Below are positions 48,290 through 57,798 of a DNA stretch of 64,000 bases, one piece after another. The number at the start of each line of letters is the position of its first letter. The first letter of the stretch is position 1. Origin of the DNA: Rosistilla ulvae. Lineage in GTDB: Bacteria > Planctomycetota > Planctomycetia > Pirellulales > Pirellulaceae. A program made the translations under genes and the position numbers. The notes beneath the pieces are model-generated. The model was not told where the DNA came from and ran no database searches. It worked only from the letters and a program-made list of their open reading frames with translations. The stretch lies in NCBI RefSeq assembly GCF_007741475.1, contig NZ_CP036261.1, positions 5,085,798-5,149,797 on the forward strand. Direction: 5' to 3'.

Positions 48290-50140
48290 ATGTTTTCATT
48301 GCCGATCCGTCCGACGACCTCCCGCCAACTGGCGCGGATCGATCGCCAATTGCGAACTCTTTCGAGCGTTTCGGATCGACAGCTCCGCGAGCAAGCGGCG
48401 ACGCTGCGGTATCGTGCCGCTGCGGGTGAATCGCTGCACCGCCTGTTGCCCGAGGCATACGCTCTGGTCGTCGAAGCGGCTGACCGCACCCTGGGCATTC
48501 GCCACTACGACGTGCAGTTGCTGGGCGGAATTCATCTGGCCAACCGCTGCGTTATCGAGATGGAGACCGGGCAGGGGAAGACGTTGACTGCAACGCTGCC
48601 CCTGTTTCTGCATGCGTTGCGAGGGCAAGGCGTTCACTTGGCAACCAGCAACGATTATCTAGCCCAACGCGACGCCGACACGATGCGTCCCCTGTTCTCG
48701 ATGTTAGGACTCACCTGTGGCGTAGTGGTCGATGGCATGGACGACTCGCAGCGGCGGCACAGCTATCGATGCGACATCACCTACGCCACCGCTGCCGAAT
48801 TGGGATTCGACTTCCTCCGCGATCGGTTGAAACGCCGCGCCGCAGCAGGAGCCTCCACGGCAGACCAATCGGAACTGCAGCCGGTCGGTCGCGAGCTCGA
48901 TTTCCTGCTAGCCGATGAAGCCGACGCGCTGATGATCGACGAAGCAAATACGCCGATGATCATTGGGGCGCCGGCGCGGATCAGCGATCAGAAACAGGCT
49001 CTCTACCAATGGGCGGCACAAACGGCTCCCGACGCGATCGAAAAACAACACTATCGATACAACCTCCGCGAGCGTTCGGTGGAACTATTGCCCGCCGGCC
49101 GGCAATGGGCGCGACAGCAATTGAGTGCGGGCTTGATGGACGGAAACAGCATCTTGGATCTGTTCGAAAAGCTGGAGCGGGCGATCACCGTCGATCGCGA
49201 TTTCCATCGCGACCAGCACTACATTGTCCGCGACGGTGAGATCGTGCTGATCAATGAAGCGACGGGGCGACTGGGCGAAGGGCGACAATGGCAGGACGGA
49301 ATCCAGCAAGCGATTCAAGCTGTCGAGCGGTTGCCGATCACCGCTCCAACAACCCACGCGGCGAAGCTGACGGTGCAGGGGCTGTTCCTTTCCTACCGGC
49401 ACCTAGCGGGGATGACAGGCACGGCGGTCGCTGCGGCATCGGAACTGAGGAAGGTCTACAAAACGAACGTCGTGCGAATCCCGCCCCTTCACAAATCGCG
49501 GCGGCAAGCGTTATCGACCCGCTACTTCGCCGACGATACCGAAAAGTATCAAGCGATCGTCGACGAGATCATCGCCATCGGGCATGCGGGGCGGCCGGTG
49601 TTGATTGGGACGCGGAGTGTCGAAAATTCGCAGCGTCTGAGCAAGCTGTTGCGCGACGCTAACGTACCGCATCAAGTGCTCAACGCTCACCAGCACGCAT
49701 CGGAAGCAAAAATCATCGCCCTCGCCGGCCGCGCGGGCCAAGTCACGGTGGCGACCAGCATGGCGGGCCGGGGAACCGACATCTGCCTGGACGACGATGT
49801 CGTCGATCGCGGCGGGCTGCACGTGATCCTTTCCGAGCTGCACGATTCGCCCCGCCAAGACCAACAGTTATGGGGACGCTGTGGTCGGCAGGGACAACCG
49901 GGAACCTACCGGCAATTCTTATCCTTGGACGATGCGATCTTGGACCAAGCCTATGGTGACCAGGCCGCTGCCGGTTATCGCACACATCGCCGCGGCAACC
50001 AAGCCGCATTGTTGTCGACAGCCCAACAGACGCTGGAACAACGGCGACGGCAAAACCGTCTGACGGCCCTCTACCATGAAAAACGTCGGCTCCGCGCGGT
50101 CTGGGAAATGGGTCGCGATCCGCTGTTGGATGTCATGTAA
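48290..50140 (+). CDS. truncated SecA-like ATPase of an unclassified export system
   Basis: A 616-residue SecA-like helicase-fold ATPase. Visible SecA-family motifs: Walker A-like EMETGQGKTLTA, TSNDYLAQRDA, Walker B/DEAD region ADEADALMIDEANTPMIIGA, LAGMTGTA, TVATSMAGRGTDI, and the arginine-finger region DQQLWGRCGRQGQPG. Housekeeping SecA has about 800-950 residues; here the reading stops soon after the second motor domain, with only a short Arg-rich helical tail, so the wing/scaffold domains and the zinc-binding C-terminus are missing. A substrate cross-linking region may be reduced. The PqqD-M50-HlyD gene starts 21 bp later, indicating an operon and a dedicated rather than general secretion role. 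Confidence 0.88.
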   Translation: MFSLPIRPTTSRQLARIDRQLRTLSSVSDRQLREQAATLRYRAAAGESLHRLLPEAYALVVEAADRTLGIRHYDVQLLGGIHLANRCVIEMETGQGKTLTATLPLFLHALRGQGVHLATSNDYLAQRDADTMRPLFSMLGLTCGVVVDGMDDSQRRHSYRCDITYATAAELGFDFLRDRLKRRAAAGASTADQSELQPVGRELDFLLADEADALMIDEANTPMIIGAPARISDQKQALYQWAAQTAPDAIEKQHYRYNLRERSVELLPAGRQWARQQLSAGLMDGNSILDLFEKLERAITVDRDFHRDQHYIVRDGEIVLINEATGRLGEGRQWQDGIQQAIQAVERLPITAPTTHAAKLTVQGLFLSYRHLAGMTGTAVAAASELRKVYKTNVVRIPPLHKSRRQALSTRYFADDTEKYQAIVDEIIAIGHAGRPVLIGTRSVENSQRLSKLLRDANVPHQVLNAHQHASEAKIIALAGRAGQVTVATSMAGRGTDICLDDDVVDRGGLHVILSELHDSPRQDQQLWGRCGRQGQPGTYRQFLSLDDAILDQAYGDQAAAGYRTHRRGNQAALLSTAQQTLEQRRRQNRLTALYHEKRRLRAVWEMGRDPLLDVM

Positions 50141-50161
50141 CGCCAGACAAAATTAAGCATC

Positions 50162-52408
50162 ATGTACGCCACCGGCAGCCCCACCAATCCGATTCCACTG
50201 CGCATGCGAGACGACCTCCGCGTGGTCGAGCACGTCTACCGTGGGGAAGCGACGTTTGTGATCGGCGACATGTTGGCGCTCCAGTACTTCCGACTCAACC
50301 CGCAGGAATACGCCCTGCTGGCCGCGTTAAATGGACAGAACAGCGCCAGTGATATCAAGGAACAATTCGAAGCGAAGTTCGCGTCCCACCGGATCAGCTA
50401 TCAAGAACTGCAAGCCTACCTGATCGACTTTCACAAAAAGGGCCTACTAGCCGGCGCGGTCTCCGATTCCGGAAGACATCTGCACCGGCTGGGACGAACC
50501 CGCAAGATCAAGCAACGGTTCAGCGAATCGAAAAACGTCTTGGCCTTCCGTTGGCGAGGGATCAATCCCGACCGAGCGTTTCAAACCGCAACGGCCCTCT
50601 TCGGCTGGTTCTTCAGCAAACCGATGGTGATCCTCAACGCCGCGTTGATGCTTTTTGCAGTCGCCTGGCTCGCGGCGCACGCCGATGAATTTGCCGCTCG
50701 CCTGCCCAGCATGCAGGCCTTCTTCTCGGGCAAGAACTGGCTGATGTTAGGCCTTGTGCTGGCCGGAATGAAAGTGCTGCACGAATTTGGCCATGGGATC
50801 GTGCTGACGAAATACGGCGGCCGCTGCCACGAACTGGGCGTGATGCTGTTGGTTTTCATGCCCACGCTCTACGTCAACACCTCCGATTCTTGGCGGATCA
50901 GCGACAAGTGGAAGCGAGCCGCGATCGCGGCAGCGGGCGTCTATGTCGAACTCTTTCTGGCGGCGCTCGCAACGTTTGGTTGGTGGCACAGCCGCCCCGG
51001 TGGATTTCAATACGTCTGTCTGAACGTGATGTTCCTAGGATCGGTCAGCGCATTTTTGTTTAACGGCAATCCGCTGTTGAAGTTCGATGGCTATTACCTG
51101 TTGTGCGATCTGATCGAGATCCCCAACTTACAGAAGCGTTCGCAAACACTTGTTCGCAATCTGTTCCTACGGCATGCGATGGGTGTTCGCGAAGGAGACG
51201 AAGATCTGCTGCCGACGCGAACCAAAATCTGGTTGGCCGGATATCTCGTCGCGTCGACGCTCTATCGTCTGTTCCTGATCTACGTGATCGCATTTCTGAT
51301 CGTCCGTTTGTTCCAGCCCGCGGGCTTGCAGGAGTTCGCCAAAATGTTCAGCTTCCTTCTGATCGGCCTGATGTTCGTGGTCCCCATCTTCGCCCTGGCC
51401 CGATACTTTTGGGTTCCCGGTCGCGTTCACAAGGTGCACCCCACGCGTGCCATCATCACCACCGTTCTGTTTGCCGCGGCGGCTGGGTTTGTTGTCGCAG
51501 TCCCGTTGCCCGACCATATCGTTTGCGATTTTGTCGTCCAACCGCGCGACTCGCAAACCGTCTATGTCCAGCATGACGCGGTGCTGCACGAGATCCACGT
51601 CGAGCCAAAACAACAGGTCCAGCGAGGAGACAAGATCGCGACGATGCGGAACCTGGACATCGAACTGGAGATCGCGGAACTCTCCGGTCGACTGATCGAA
51701 TTGGACAGCGAGCAACGGATGCTGCGGTTGGCTCGCTATCAGTCCCCCAGCGGCGCCGACGAATTGAGCAACATCCGCCAACAACGACTGACGATCGAAC
51801 AACGGCTTGCCCAACTGCGGCAGATCCAAAAGCAAATGGTTTTACGTGCCCCGCAATCGGGAACGGTGCTCCCGATGTGGTTGGATCAAATGCCGCACGC
51901 CGATCCCGATACGCTCGACCGATGGGACGGTTGGACACTGCATTCCGAAAACGTGGGTACCTCGTATTCGCGGGGCCAGCCGATTTGCAAGATCGGCGAC
52001 CTGGGGACTCCCGACGCGCGGTTGACGATCGATCAAAGCGACATCGAATTTGTAGAGCGTGGCCAACCGGTTCAACTGCTGTTGGATTCCCAGTCGGGTC
52101 GCGCACTGACCAGCCGCATCGAATCGATCTCCGAATCGGATACCGACCAGATTCGCGCCAACGTCACCCGAGAGTTCGGCGGCGCAGTGGAGACCAAGCA
52201 GGAGCAAGCGGCTTGGAACGGGGAGATCGAAGATCCGCAAAACGTCCGCGTCGCGGGAGCCGTCTATCAAGCAATCGCCCGGCTTCCGGAGACCGACCAG
52301 CCGCTGGAGGATGGGCTGCGTGGGACCGCTCGTATTGCTATCGGCAAGCGAACTCTGGCCGGCCGGCTGCAGCGGTTCGTCCAAAAAACATTCCGGATCG
52401 ATCTCTAA
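50162..52408 (+). CDS. PqqD-M50 site-2 protease-HlyD fusion protein
   Basis: A 748-residue polytopic protein. Residues about 10-100 resemble a PqqD-like winged domain (YRGEATFVIGDMLALQYFRLN, FHKKGLLAG). The middle, about 140-460, has several membrane helices with the zinc motif HEFGH near residue 205 and the second ligand region NPLLKFDGYYLLCDL near 305, as in M50 site-2 proteases. The C-terminal third is a HlyD/membrane-fusion-type adaptor: VQPRDSQTVYVQHDAVLHEIHVEPKQQVQRGDKIATM (lipoyl-like), a helical hairpin with heptads, then LRAPQSGTVLPMW and a beta barrel. It sits 21 bp after the SecA-like gene. The fusion suggests a channel or adaptor for exported, possibly processed, peptides. The exact function is unknown. 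Confidence 0.85.
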   Translation: MYATGSPTNPIPLRMRDDLRVVEHVYRGEATFVIGDMLALQYFRLNPQEYALLAALNGQNSASDIKEQFEAKFASHRISYQELQAYLIDFHKKGLLAGAVSDSGRHLHRLGRTRKIKQRFSESKNVLAFRWRGINPDRAFQTATALFGWFFSKPMVILNAALMLFAVAWLAAHADEFAARLPSMQAFFSGKNWLMLGLVLAGMKVLHEFGHGIVLTKYGGRCHELGVMLLVFMPTLYVNTSDSWRISDKWKRAAIAAAGVYVELFLAALATFGWWHSRPGGFQYVCLNVMFLGSVSAFLFNGNPLLKFDGYYLLCDLIEIPNLQKRSQTLVRNLFLRHAMGVREGDEDLLPTRTKIWLAGYLVASTLYRLFLIYVIAFLIVRLFQPAGLQEFAKMFSFLLIGLMFVVPIFALARYFWVPGRVHKVHPTRAIITTVLFAAAAGFVVAVPLPDHIVCDFVVQPRDSQTVYVQHDAVLHEIHVEPKQQVQRGDKIATMRNLDIELEIAELSGRLIELDSEQRMLRLARYQSPSGADELSNIRQQRLTIEQRLAQLRQIQKQMVLRAPQSGTVLPMWLDQMPHADPDTLDRWDGWTLHSENVGTSYSRGQPICKIGDLGTPDARLTIDQSDIEFVERGQPVQLLLDSQSGRALTSRIESISESDTDQIRANVTREFGGAVETKQEQAAWNGEIEDPQNVRVAGAVYQAIARLPETDQPLEDGLRGTARIAIGKRTLAGRLQRFVQKTFRIDL

Positions 52409-54227: not shown

Positions 54228-54490
54228 CTTGGTTCCCAACGATGCTATTCTAGGAAGAACGCTCCTGATCGCGGCAAGCATTATGCGGATGTCCCCCTCG
54301 GACTCCCCGTTGGGTTACTTTCTGGAGGGCCTACTGGAGAAACGGCGTCGCTTCGCGTACGCTATCAACAACCTTGTCGCCCCCCTAATGGTGCAAGTCC
54401 GCGTGGCGGCATCGCGGTGCTCGGGCGACGTCCTCTATAGCCAAGGCAATCCTCGAAGCTTGCCATCCCAGTTTGCGATCAACCTGGTTC

Positions 54491-54853
54491 ATGACGAACA
54501 AACTTCCAGCACCGGCGCCCGATGACGGAGGAGATTTCCTGCTCTACCAGACCGATGACGGCTCCACCCGGATCGAGGTCCGGATGGCTGACGAAAACGT
54601 CTGGCTGTCCCAGAAAGACATGGCCGAGCTGTTTCGGACGACGCCACAAAACATAACCCAACACCTGGCAACGATTTACGAAGAGGGTGAACTGACCGAA
54701 GCGGCAACTTGTAAGGAATACTTACAAGTTCGATCCGAGGGCAAACGACAGGTACAACGGTCGCTCAAACACTACAATCTCGACGCCATCATCTCGGTCG
54801 GCTATCGCGTCCGCTCCCGTCGGGGGACGCAGTTTCGGATCTGGGCCACGCAG
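54491..54853 (+). pseudogene. truncated RhuM-like gene
   Basis: About 121 residues match the N-terminal half of RhuM-family proteins: FLLYQTDDGSTRIEVRMADENVWLSQKDMAELF, NITQHLATIYEEGEL, and LKHYNLDAIISVGYRVRSRRGTQFRIWATQ. Intact RhuM proteins continue (usually about 330 residues) after FRIWATQ, but here the frame changes to unrelated sequence at about 54853 and runs into the start of the next gene out of frame. RhuM-like genes are frequent in defence and mobile islands. It is therefore a remnant, not a working gene. Confidence 0.75.
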
Positions 54854-54906
54854 GCGAGACCTGAACTTTACCGAAAAAATCCAAAGTTAAGAAGCAGGAA
54901 TTGCGT

Positions 54907-57798
54907 ATGTCGACACTACATAGACAAGATCAGCGTGGAGCTCTTTGGCGAAGATGGGATCTTCACTTTCACACGCCAGCATCATTTGATTACGCAGACG
55001 GCAGCGTTACAAACACTGAAATTGTCGACGGCCTGCGTGCTGCCGGAGTAGCTGTCGTCGCCATCACGGACCATCACACAATTGATGTGGATCGTTTTGA
55101 AGAACTGCGACGAATTGCCGGGGATGATATAACGTTTTTTCCAGGCATCGAACTTCGCTGTGAACTCGGTGGAAAAGAGTCAATTCACTACATCGGAATT
55201 TTTCCAGAAACAGCAAACGTGCGAGACCTGTGGTCGAGCTTACAAGGCAAGCTCGACATAACACCTTCGCAAGTCACGTCAAAGACGAACGAAGGAGTCT
55301 GGGTACCATACGAAAAGGGATGTACGGCCATCCGAGATCTTGGCGGTCTCGTTTCCATCCATGCCGGGAAGAAGTCGAACTCCTTTGAGAACATAAAGAA
55401 CAATCCGCCCTTCAAGCAGCAGGTCAAAACGGACATTCTTCGTGAGTGCGTAGACATACTGGAAGTTCAGAGCGATGGAGATTGCACAGGATATCGTGAC
55501 ATTGTATTTCCATCGGTTCGTTTCCGACGACCGATTGTCGTTGGTTCCGACAATCACGACATTCGGAACTACTCAACTAAATGCTCTTGTTGGATCAGAG
55601 GGGACGCGACATTCGAGGCCTTAAAGCACGTATGTTGTGAGCCGGACGACCGTGTATATCTCGGGGAGATTCCTCCACTGCTTGAGCGGGTTGCCAGCAA
55701 TCGTACGAGATACATTCGTTCGGTCGAAGTTCGGAAGGTTGCCAATGCAAAACTCTCGGAAACATGGTTCGATTGTGAAATACCGCTGAACCACGGGCTA
55801 GTTGCAGTTATCGGTAATAAGGGCGGCGGCAAGAGTGCCTTCGCAGACATTATTGGCCTTCTTGGTGACTCCGACGCAGGGGATGACTTCTCGTTTTTGA
55901 ATGCTGACAAATTCTGTAAGGCGAACAACAACAAGGCGAGATCATTCACTGGAACGATGACCTGGGAAAGCGGTGGCGCATCCAAGCGGTTGTTGTCCGA
56001 GCGCATCACGGCCGAAGTGGAGTCAGTCAAGTACCTCCCTCAAGAGTACATCGAGGGTGTATGCAACGAACTCCAGGAGCACGACGGAGGCCGTTTTTCT
56101 GAGGAATTGGCTTCAGTTATCTTCTCGCACGTCGAACATAGTGATCGGCTCAAATGCAACACGTTTGACGAATTGTTGCAGTACAAAACCGCTGAGAAAT
56201 TAAAAGCAGTTGCAGTGCGAAGGGAATCGCTCAACACCTTGATTACTTCGTTAGTGGCTCAAGAACGACTTTCCTCTCCCTCACACATTCAGACTATCAA
56301 TGAACAGATTGCCAGCAAGAAGCGAGTATTGGATGCTCATAATGCTGCCAAGCCAGCGGAAGTTCCGAAGCCGGTTGAGGATGAAGCAGCACGCGCCAAG
56401 ACAGAGAATGCCGAGAAAACAATTGCGGAGCTGACAGCAAAAGCCGACGAGCTTCAAAAGAATTTGGAGACGGCGAATCAACTGTTGACTCAGGCCAACA
56501 GGCGAATCGCCGCAGCCGATCGATTGACGACCCGCCTCACCTCATTCGAGGCTGAAGTATCGATGCTGAAGGAACAGTCGGGCAAGGACTGTGCTGATCT
56601 TGGACTTTCGATCGACGACATCGTCAATATAACTGTTAATAAGACCCGAATAACAGAAGCCAAAGCCCTAGCGACCGAGCAATCTCAGACTCAATCGAAA
56701 ATCGTTGCACCAGAACCAGAAAATAGCCTTGCACGGCAGATCGCTTCCATTGAACAGCAAATGGCCGAGATTCGCAATGCATTGGCTGGCCCTTCAAAGA
56801 AGTACCATCAGTACCTCATTGAACTCAAGAACTGGCAAACTCGGCGGGACGCGATCGTCGGTTCAGAAGATAAGGACGACACGCTCATCTTCTATGAGAA
56901 GCAACGCGAGGACTGCGACGCCGCTGCCAAAGGTGTACCGTCTATATTGGATCAAGTCATCACGAAAGCCATTGAAGTCTACCACGATATAGACGCATTA
57001 GCTGCCGTGTACAGCGATCTCTACGCGCCCGTGCAGCGTTTCATTGAGAAACACCCTCTGGCCAAAACTCAGTTTCATATGTCGTTCGAAACTAAAATCG
57101 TGGAGCAACGATTCGCTGTAGACTTCCTGTCCCACATCGCACAGAATCGCAAGGGATCTTTTAATGGCTCGATCGAAGGGAGCGAGCGAATCACCGGTTT
57201 GCTCCGAGAAACCGATTTTAATACAGCAGAGAGTGCCGCCGAGTTTCTGCGTAAAGTGTGGCACGCACTACATAACGATCTTCGAAATGCACCACCCCAA
57301 CAGAGCCATGTGACGGATCAACTTGCGAAGGGATCGACGGCTCAACAGTTGTACGAACATTTGTTTGGCTTTGAATACTTGCGTCCATTCTTCACGCTTC
57401 GCTGGGCGGGGAAAGACGTTTCACAGCTCTCACCCGGGGAGCGAGGCACTCTCTTACTAGTCTTCTACTTGCTCATCGATAGAGCAGACATTCCGTTGAT
57501 TATCGATCAGCCTGAAGAGAATCTCGACAATCAAACAGTTTTCAACGTACTGGTGCCGAGTATCAAGGAGGCTAGATCGAGACGGCAGATCATAATTGTT
57601 ACTCACAACCCAAATCTAGCGGTTGTATGCGACGCCGATCAAATCATTTGTGCCTCGATTGATAAAGAAGACGGCAATACGGTTACGTATGTCGGGGGCG
57701 CTATCGAGAACCCCGGCATTAACAATCGAATTCTTGATATTCTCGAAGGAACCCGACCTGCCTTTGACAACAGAGACTCGAAGTACCATCCGAAGTAG
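54907..57798 (+). CDS. PHP-domain and SMC-like ATPase protein (TrlF-like, defence type)
   Basis: A 963-residue protein. The N-terminal PHP phosphoesterase domain has WDLHFHTPASF (residues 17-27), AITDHHTID, PGIELRCELGG and VVGSDNHDIR, giving a plausible metal centre. Residues about 303-311 (GNKGGGKSA) are the Walker A of an SMC/Rad50-like ATPase; a coiled-coil region lies near 440-640; the signature LSPGERG (about 840) and Walker B PLIIDQPEENLD (about 861-872) follow. This architecture matches proteins I know as TrlF-type ATPases. It is inferred to cleave or sense nucleic acid as a defence factor. GCAGGA lies upstream of the ATG at 54907. Base composition is visibly poorer in G/C than its neighbours, pointing to transfer. 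Confidence 0.82.
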   Translation: MSTLHRQDQRGALWRRWDLHFHTPASFDYADGSVTNTEIVDGLRAAGVAVVAITDHHTIDVDRFEELRRIAGDDITFFPGIELRCELGGKESIHYIGIFPETANVRDLWSSLQGKLDITPSQVTSKTNEGVWVPYEKGCTAIRDLGGLVSIHAGKKSNSFENIKNNPPFKQQVKTDILRECVDILEVQSDGDCTGYRDIVFPSVRFRRPIVVGSDNHDIRNYSTKCSCWIRGDATFEALKHVCCEPDDRVYLGEIPPLLERVASNRTRYIRSVEVRKVANAKLSETWFDCEIPLNHGLVAVIGNKGGGKSAFADIIGLLGDSDAGDDFSFLNADKFCKANNNKARSFTGTMTWESGGASKRLLSERITAEVESVKYLPQEYIEGVCNELQEHDGGRFSEELASVIFSHVEHSDRLKCNTFDELLQYKTAEKLKAVAVRRESLNTLITSLVAQERLSSPSHIQTINEQIASKKRVLDAHNAAKPAEVPKPVEDEAARAKTENAEKTIAELTAKADELQKNLETANQLLTQANRRIAAADRLTTRLTSFEAEVSMLKEQSGKDCADLGLSIDDIVNITVNKTRITEAKALATEQSQTQSKIVAPEPENSLARQIASIEQQMAEIRNALAGPSKKYHQYLIELKNWQTRRDAIVGSEDKDDTLIFYEKQREDCDAAAKGVPSILDQVITKAIEVYHDIDALAAVYSDLYAPVQRFIEKHPLAKTQFHMSFETKIVEQRFAVDFLSHIAQNRKGSFNGSIEGSERITGLLRETDFNTAESAAEFLRKVWHALHNDLRNAPPQQSHVTDQLAKGSTAQQLYEHLFGFEYLRPFFTLRWAGKDVSQLSPGERGTLLLVFYLLIDRADIPLIIDQPEENLDNQTVFNVLVPSIKEARSRRQIIIVTHNPNLAVVCDADQIICASIDKEDGNTVTYVGGAIENPGINNRILDILEGTRPAFDNRDSKYHPK

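Follow-up and report, generated by a model that had tools for sequence, protein, structure and literature searches.

Two adjacent genes in a 64,000-nucleotide stretch of the Rosistilla ulvae genome (the window, below) raise the question of whether a shortened SecA-like ATPase and a membrane protease fused to an export adaptor could together recognise, cleave and export peptides or small proteins. The ATPase gene (48290..50140, + strand; 616 aa) was defined by its open reading frame (ORF), Pfam, motifs and structure matches. Its stop codon lies 21 bp before the ATG of a gene for a 748-aa protein (50162..52408, + strand), called M50-HlyD below, which joins a RRE/PqqD-like domain (RRE, recognition element of ribosomally synthesised and post-translationally modified peptides, RiPPs), an M50 site-2 protease and a HlyD membrane-fusion protein. 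A first-pass annotation, made from the sequence alone, had placed a 748-residue protein 21 bp downstream of the ATPase gene, and the coordinates confirm this. Both other genomes of the genus that were examined have the pair in the same order with a spacing of 20-odd bp, and the two genes are under purifying selection in the three genus genomes (ratio of nonsynonymous to synonymous substitution rates, dN/dS, 0.07–0.12); because order and gap are conserved and dN/dS is this low, the pair is not a chance arrangement. On the best reading, an export module widespread in planctomycetes has a genus-level paralogue in this pair, and the module was tentatively interpreted as a SecA-driven, leader-cleaving exporter, an explanation that we favour while rating it somewhat below an even chance.

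The short SecA and the M50-HlyD protein

In the 616-aa protein, Pfam detected SecA_DEAD (5.9e-92), a full-length SecA_PP_bind and P-loop_SecA, with no Pfam match to the wing/scaffold domain. The motor motifs start at residues 94 (GQGKT, the Walker A motif, 48569-48583, + strand), 209 (DEAD), 493 (GRGTD) and 529 (GRCGRQG), and the preprotein cross-linking domain (PPXD; 48992..49318, + strand; PF01043, residues 235-343) is of full length, covering positions 2-110 of the 110 in the profile. When aligned to the genome's own 1232-aa SecA, the short protein was found to terminate within the long scaffold helix and to be missing the parts that we take to be the helical wing and the two-helix finger. 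The wing domain and two-helix finger of SecA are the parts working with SecYEG. The C-terminal tail (50000..50137, + strand) consists of the start of the scaffold helix (modelled helix 571-606) followed by a DPxLD-type end, and the short SecA of relatives end similarly, for example with the stretch AQRKVERKHFRDR...HHEKERKKMQREMGQDPYLD; the pattern [DN]PxL[DE] lies within the last 30 residues of 36/39 short SecA. Pfam, motifs and alignment thus bear out the description in the first-pass annotation of a 616-residue SecA-like ATPase with intact motor motifs whose C-terminal part is gone. The refuting condition that it named, loss of the ATPase residues in close relatives, was not seen: all 39 short SecA match the patterns for Walker A, DExD and GRGTD, and 37 of them match GRxxRQG. 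In an alignment of 37 of these 39 proteins with one housekeeping SecA, no residue of Walker A, DExD or GRGTD varied. Walker A reads GQGKT in three proteins only, the window SecA and the orthologues from the two other genus genomes, and GEGKT in the other 36.

The closest solved structures were found to be SecA2 chains, the best being 6t4h_A (4.4e-125; C. difficile according to the entry title). The NCBIfam SecA2 models were matched far below their cut-offs, with 494 of 930 bits for TIGR03714 and 502 of 1085, 427 of 725 and 382 of 1100 bits for the others. An AlphaFold2 model, whose best Foldseek match was 6sxh (2.1e-36), followed by E. coli SecA-N68 (5k9t, 1.2e-35), was poor (pLDDT, the predicted local confidence score, 67, from 8 sequences), and conclusions on this protein rest on its sequence. 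In a tree, the window SecA fell among the short SecA, in a fully supported set with the two genus orthologues only, and the SecA of two other loci of the genome (L023 and L024) grouped with the single housekeeping SecA included, on long branches.

For the 748-aa protein, the first-pass annotation had named an M50 core with HEFGH and a HlyD-like adaptor, and both were recovered by Pfam, Peptidase_M50 just below its cut-off (6.9e-6; 26.0 against 27.2 bits) and HlyD_3 (PF13437) above it (2.8e-9). The PqqD-like domain proposed in the same annotation (50183..50455, + strand) was weak in the window protein itself (14.7 bits, cut-off 23.4), and it gained support from homologues: the N-terminal 91 residues matched Pfam PqqD at E values up to 1 in 21/23 of them (best 4.3e-5), the scan covering 23 of 28 aligned copies and omitting five more divergent ones. 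Compared with the PDB, the N-terminal profile matched best TfuB1 (6jx3_B, E 0.0036), which we take to be an RRE protein, followed by PqqD (3g2b, E 0.16), with unrelated proteins from 0.39; the modelled strands followed by three helices are consistent with this assignment. The NCBIfam model NF041824 (daptide_HExxH) matched residues 21-406 (1e-51). All 14 RRE+M50 segments scanned, a subset of the 64 aligned, matched it as well (best 1.1e-57), as they did the YydH/LiaK protease model.

The membrane core (50618..51499, + strand), delimited from the AlphaFold2 model and hydropathy, gave a profile match to the MJ0392 protease (3b4r_A, E 0.0033) and holds the HEFGH zinc motif (50780..50794, + strand; residues 207-211) and the sequence NGNPLLKFDG (51062..51091, + strand), presumably the second metal-ligand motif of M50 proteases. 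The residues H207, E208 and H211 and, in the pattern NxNPLxxxD, N301, N303, P304, L305 and D309 are invariant in 28/28 and 64/64 aligned M50-HlyD proteins, the larger alignment comprising 63 of 66 named M50 proteins and the window protein (L159, L170 and L202 omitted). The metal site of an active M50 protease is therefore kept, and proteolysis is predicted. The AlphaFold2 model (mean pLDDT 85.4, 64 sequences) has three parts: a small domain of strands and three helices, a membrane core built of helices, and an adaptor. The last of these, the periplasmic membrane-fusion part (HlyD/MacA-like, with an alpha-hairpin; 51500..52405, + strand), was identified by PF13437 and by Foldseek, in which MacA (9qgy_G, 2.7e-13) was the best match and MacA and MexA came first among the matches listed. 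Seven transmembrane (TM) helices were derived from the modelled helices and hydropathy, counting the weakly hydrophobic HExxH helix (mean 0.45 in the alignment), which was included since it lies within the membrane both in the model and in the M50 fold. The model thus suggests an N-in/C-out topology, with the RRE domain cytosolic and the HlyD part periplasmic.

Gene neighbourhoods and co-occurrence

Across 40 genomes of the order (R. ulvae included), short SecA was found in 38 and M50-HlyD in 39, and nine copies of the latter occur in R. ulvae alone, for which reason the module probably matters to these bacteria. The two-gene form with SecA first was seen in the three genus genomes examined (G000, G001 and G002) and nowhere else among the 40. 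At least one SecA/M50-HlyD pair occurs in 19 genomes, and all 30 neighbouring pairs lie on one strand, with SecA first in 28. The co-conservation foreseen in the first-pass annotation was therefore strong at the level of genomes and partial at that of loci, as only 30 of the 65 short-SecA matches have M50-HlyD within 8 kb. Left out of these counts, by eye, were housekeeping SecA (open frame >1100), further fragments of a gene already counted and G011:C10 (a housekeeping-like 663-codon frame at a contig edge), and a few retained matches are fragments (G018:C142, G026, G033). A search with M50-HlyD recovered at least 561 named Planctomycetota loci. The best 80 were kept, many of them cut by contig ends, and eight carry a labelled SecA frame; 29 of the 80 span 20 kb or more, and among these GAF-HlyD labels occur in 23, HlyD labels in 19 and SecA labels in three. 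The adaptors are constant partners of M50-HlyD and SecA is an occasional neighbour. Neighbour counts from gene labelling are lower bounds, since the longest-frame ORF caller lost true genes to antisense frames (for example, at L213, L221 and L225); a tblastn pass restored genes in 15 deep-branching loci.

In the R. ulvae genome, the six SecA matches comprise one housekeeping (1232 aa) and five short proteins, and weaker adaptor matches occur besides the nine M50-HlyD copies. Short SecA adjoins three M50-HlyD genes, in the window pair, in L023 (OEP-SecA-HlyD-HlyD-M50HlyD, OEP being the outer-membrane factor) and in L024 (SecA-HlyD-GAFHlyD-M50HlyD-OEP), and the remaining six copies lack it. At L022 and L025 short SecA has no M50-HlyD nearby; L022 lies beside a divergent BBP7 porin gene, and L026 has the order GAFHlyD-HlyD-M50HlyD followed by a DUF3467 gene (G000:C1:2064857-2065117). 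L022 and L026 look like a single locus split in two, because relatives (L095, for example) hold BBP7-SecA-GAFHlyD-HlyD-M50HlyD-DUF3467 together, and the window pair looks like an additional copy. GAF-HlyD and HlyD paralogues are encoded elsewhere in the genome and belong to the locus in many relatives, so that the idea in the first-pass annotation of a complete two-gene unit is not supported. In the GAF-HlyD proteins, the GAF part precedes the hydrophobic segment, which is single in 18/24 members. A hybrid histidine kinase with receiver and Hpt domains (L023 3361-5928, - strand) directly adjoins the complete L023 operon.

In the phylum as a whole, the RRE+M50 part occurs in 25/99 genomes (R. 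ulvae included), and M50-HlyD was found in 16/17 genomes with an extra SecA vs 9/82 others (Fisher 2.8e-11, uncorrected for relatedness). A genome was scored as having an extra SecA when it gave a second match (16 genomes), and G073 was added for its sole match, a 663-codon frame beside M50. With G053 and G088, in which both SecA frames are long, counted as lacking short SecA, the figures become 15/15 vs 10/84. G053, whose extra frame has 831 codons, is the one extra-SecA genome without M50-HlyD. By coordinates, SecA/M50 pairs within a few kb occur, besides R. ulvae itself, in nine of 16 such genomes (G041, G043, G071, G073, G085, G106, G110, G121 and G124).

The gene orders of the deep-branching loci were read from the tblastn pass over the 15 fetched loci. 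In 10/11 of those with both SecA and M50 (L213-L222, eight genomes), M50-HlyD is followed directly by SecA on one strand. The operons of L220 and L222 are complete (OEP-HlyD-GAFHlyD-M50HlyD-SecA), and the other orders include HlyD-GAFHlyD-M50HlyD-SecA (L214, L216, L217), DUF3467-GAFHlyD-M50HlyD-SecA (L215, L218) and M50HlyD-SecA-HlyD-GAFHlyD (L221). The eleventh locus, L223, reads DUF3467-GAFHlyD-M50HlyD-OEP-SecA-HlyD, and in L224-L227 SecA is present without M50-HlyD. The ten scanned proteins of L220, L222 and L223 were confirmed by Pfam, the GAF part of L223 being without a Pfam match, and no ABC transporter is among the assigned genes of these three operons. Pfam likewise found no ABC transporter in the window pair itself.

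A BBP7 beta-barrel porin gene lies divergently beside short SecA in 16/39 SecA loci (a lower bound; L022, L093-L098, L100-L102, L113, L116, L118, L119, L127 and L128), also where M50-HlyD is absent. BBP7 was considered as the outer-membrane exit and was taken instead as a family-level neighbour, with ten BBP7 matches in the R. ulvae genome and none labelled in the deep loci. Downstream (3') of the window pair, Pfam identified a DegT-type aminotransferase gene. Further on, a 965-aa TrlF family AAA-like ATPase (54901-57798, + strand; NF045780, 658.8 bits, above the cut-off), with a weaker match to the anti-phage protein Ppl, is perhaps encoded by a defence gene. The overlapping 192-aa frame (54473-55051, + strand) matches no NCBIfam model at E values up to 0.001 and resembles, we presume, the start of a RhuM-type protein.

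Proposed mechanism and alternative explanations

The RRE+M50 protein probably binds and cuts a leader, because its N-terminus and M50 core match the daptide model of an RRE fused to a site-2 protease. By homology, the cytosolic RRE/PqqD-like domain would bind a peptide or small protein by its leader, and the intramembrane M50 site, which has its catalytic residues, would cut that leader. The product would then pass to a periplasmic adaptor made of the HlyD part of M50-HlyD together with HlyD and GAF-HlyD, and from there to a TolC-like exit, a route proposed because operons in relatives carry both the adaptors and the outer-membrane factor; for the window pair, the adaptor partners would have to act in trans from other loci. 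The short SecA, which keeps motor and PPXD, would be the dedicated ATPase feeding or pushing the substrate, a role suggested because it is co-inherited with M50-HlyD and is the only ATPase among the genes of the complete operons. GAF-HlyD may report the state of the cell to the machine, since its GAF part precedes the hydrophobic segment. The recognise-cleave-export unit envisaged in the first-pass annotation therefore fits the daptide homology, the modelled seven-TM topology and the adaptor and OEP operons of relatives, and its activities stay at the level of prediction. A bolder form of the proposal, in which SecA rather than an ABC ATPase drives RRE-guided, M50-cut peptides without SecYEG through a hexameric adaptor of M50-HlyD, GAF-HlyD and HlyD to a TolC-like exit, as a separate secretion class, is rather doubtful. 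If true, SecA would have been co-opted to power a tripartite exporter that has no SecY channel, and the inner-membrane component of this secretion machine would at the same time be an intramembrane protease.

Several results weigh against the exporter. Energy supply by the short SecA is the weakest step, because many M50-HlyD genes, and 9/25 M50-positive phylum genomes, are without short SecA: for 92/122 M50-HlyD matches in the 40 genomes there is none within 8 kb, and G034 has M50-HlyD and no short SecA, so that the M50 protein can do without it. SecA-less units might use another ATPase or none. An ABC-ATPase-like gene family was found near core genes in 8/51 loci (L028, L097, L101, L109, L112, L113, L114 and L123; the L109 member was checked by Pfam), and at L028 (10710-11603, + strand) it lies 449 bp from a SecA-less M50-HlyD gene; such a gene may be the other motor for these units. 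Direct contact between the short SecA and M50-HlyD is a supposition of this model. No GAF-HlyD, HlyD or OEP gene is among the labelled neighbours of the window pair, which leaves it without adaptors of its own. The equivalog cut-off of NF041824 was missed (177.9 of 300 bits), and the Foldseek matches listed for the M50-HlyD model were all adaptors, by which the RRE and M50 folds are unconfirmed. Beside the loci, no precursor-like family emerged from the 2022 small ORFs that 129/131 loci have at a distance of up to 2.5 kb from core genes. The one recurrent real family among these was DUF3467, with frames near core genes in 30/129 loci, examples being L026 and L095, and also in the three deep loci L215, L218 and L223; it was considered as a candidate exported substrate, and one paper listed in a literature search carries its name. 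The other small-ORF clusters with at least four loci overlap a DUF3467 frame (77/81 members), and of the five three-locus clusters one overlaps DUF3467 and four look local.

These counts bear most directly on the possibility that M50-HlyD is a leader peptidase and adaptor working independently of SecA, alone or with another ATPase, the short SecA genes lying nearby because both arrived with one ancient module and SecA having some separate task. This explanation is somewhat unlikely in our estimate. It would account for the SecA-less matches, for the six of nine SecA-less copies in R. ulvae, for the nine phylum genomes with no extra SecA and for the ABC-ATPase-like neighbours, but it sits poorly with the rarity of extra SecA without M50-HlyD (1/17 genomes, G053), with the recurrence of M50-HlyD directly followed by SecA in L213-L222 and with the shared strand of 30/30 neighbouring pairs.

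Less likely is an accessory role of the SecA2 type, in which the short SecA would feed special substrates to SecYEG and M50-HlyD would process or sort them during or after translocation. SecA2 chains are indeed the closest solved relatives of the short SecA, and its motor and PPXD are intact, but the scaffold helix is shortened, the wing domain and two-helix finger are lost and the SecA2 models score far below their cut-offs. A similarly low probability was given to a role of the short SecA in regulated intramembrane proteolysis rather than secretion, in which it would ready a substrate for the protease as an unfoldase or chaperone, the HlyD part sensing the envelope. The kept PPXD clamp and motor, the lost C-terminal parts and the GAF domains before the hydrophobic segment of GAF-HlyD, which suggest signalling, would agree with such a role, but the outer-membrane factors and two further adaptors of the complete operons better suit export. 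Finally, loss of function in the window pair through decay after duplication, as its genus-only two-gene form without adaptors and its GQGKT Walker A (3/39 short SecA, the genus members) might suggest, is very improbable given its kept catalytic motifs and the dN/dS of both genes, which likewise disfavours a decayed short SecA.

Comparison with known systems

The leader-cleaving exporter favoured here would extend a module already in print. The first-pass annotation knew of no characterised system of this composition, but the gene pairing was published by Kamneva, Poudel and Ward in 2015 (PMC4452313), who described "secondary SecA_DEAD" proteins beside M50-HlyD, HlyD, GAF-HlyD and sometimes OEP, with a GAF protein in the majority of loci. 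In the main text of that article it is suggested that SecA acts as the ATPase and that the M50 protein forms a membrane pore, the role of the module is called unknown, and there is no mention of PqqD, RRE, RiPP, BBP7 or DUF3467 (PMC4452313). Like the published module, the window locus has a SecA_DEAD protein without all or most of SecA_SW and, 21 bp away, a Peptidase_M50+HlyD protein; it differs in consisting of SecA and M50-HlyD only, with SecA first, and because GAF-HlyD and HlyD neighbours are absent it is a variant rather than a plain member. Secondary SecA of the published module form a clade separate from housekeeping SecA; the tree described above has the window SecA among the short SecA, and L023 and L024 beside the one housekeeping protein. 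No later experimental work on the module was found in a literature search that most subscription papers lay beyond; among the papers listed, PMC5313232 contains the title phrase of the 2015 article. Within the reach of such searches, the new points are the assignment as an RRE protease, the topology prediction, the conserved SecA tail, the DUF3467 neighbour, the deep-lineage SecA-containing operons of four to six genes and the co-occurrence count, and the RRE homology makes the function of the 2015 module testable via leader peptides.

The daptide protease (MpaP/DapP) is described as a leader-removing site-2 protease with a fused RRE (PMC10036551). The window protein resembles it (NF041824) over residues 21-406 in its N-terminal RRE, a likeness resting on weak single scores and the AlphaFold2 model, and in its intramembrane site-2 protease, and differs in adding a HlyD adaptor and in scoring under the NF041824 cut-off. 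Unlike daptide clusters, M50-HlyD loci had no precursor-like family found beside them, and the aminotransferase families listed for daptide clusters are other than the DegT-type one that follows the window pair (PMC10036551).

With type I secretion systems, the window pair shares a membrane-fusion protein (Pfam, Foldseek) and not the ABC transporter. Peptidase-containing ABC transporters couple leader cleavage to ATP-driven export. The proposed module would resemble them in both respects, by functional analogy rather than kinship, with the M50 site and SecA replacing the C39 domain and the ABC ATPase. Accessory SecA2 and the E. coli SecA-N68 fragment (5k9t) share the DEAD motor and PPXD with the short SecA, which differs in ending naturally within the scaffold helix, in its DPxLD-type tail and in its adaptor neighbours.

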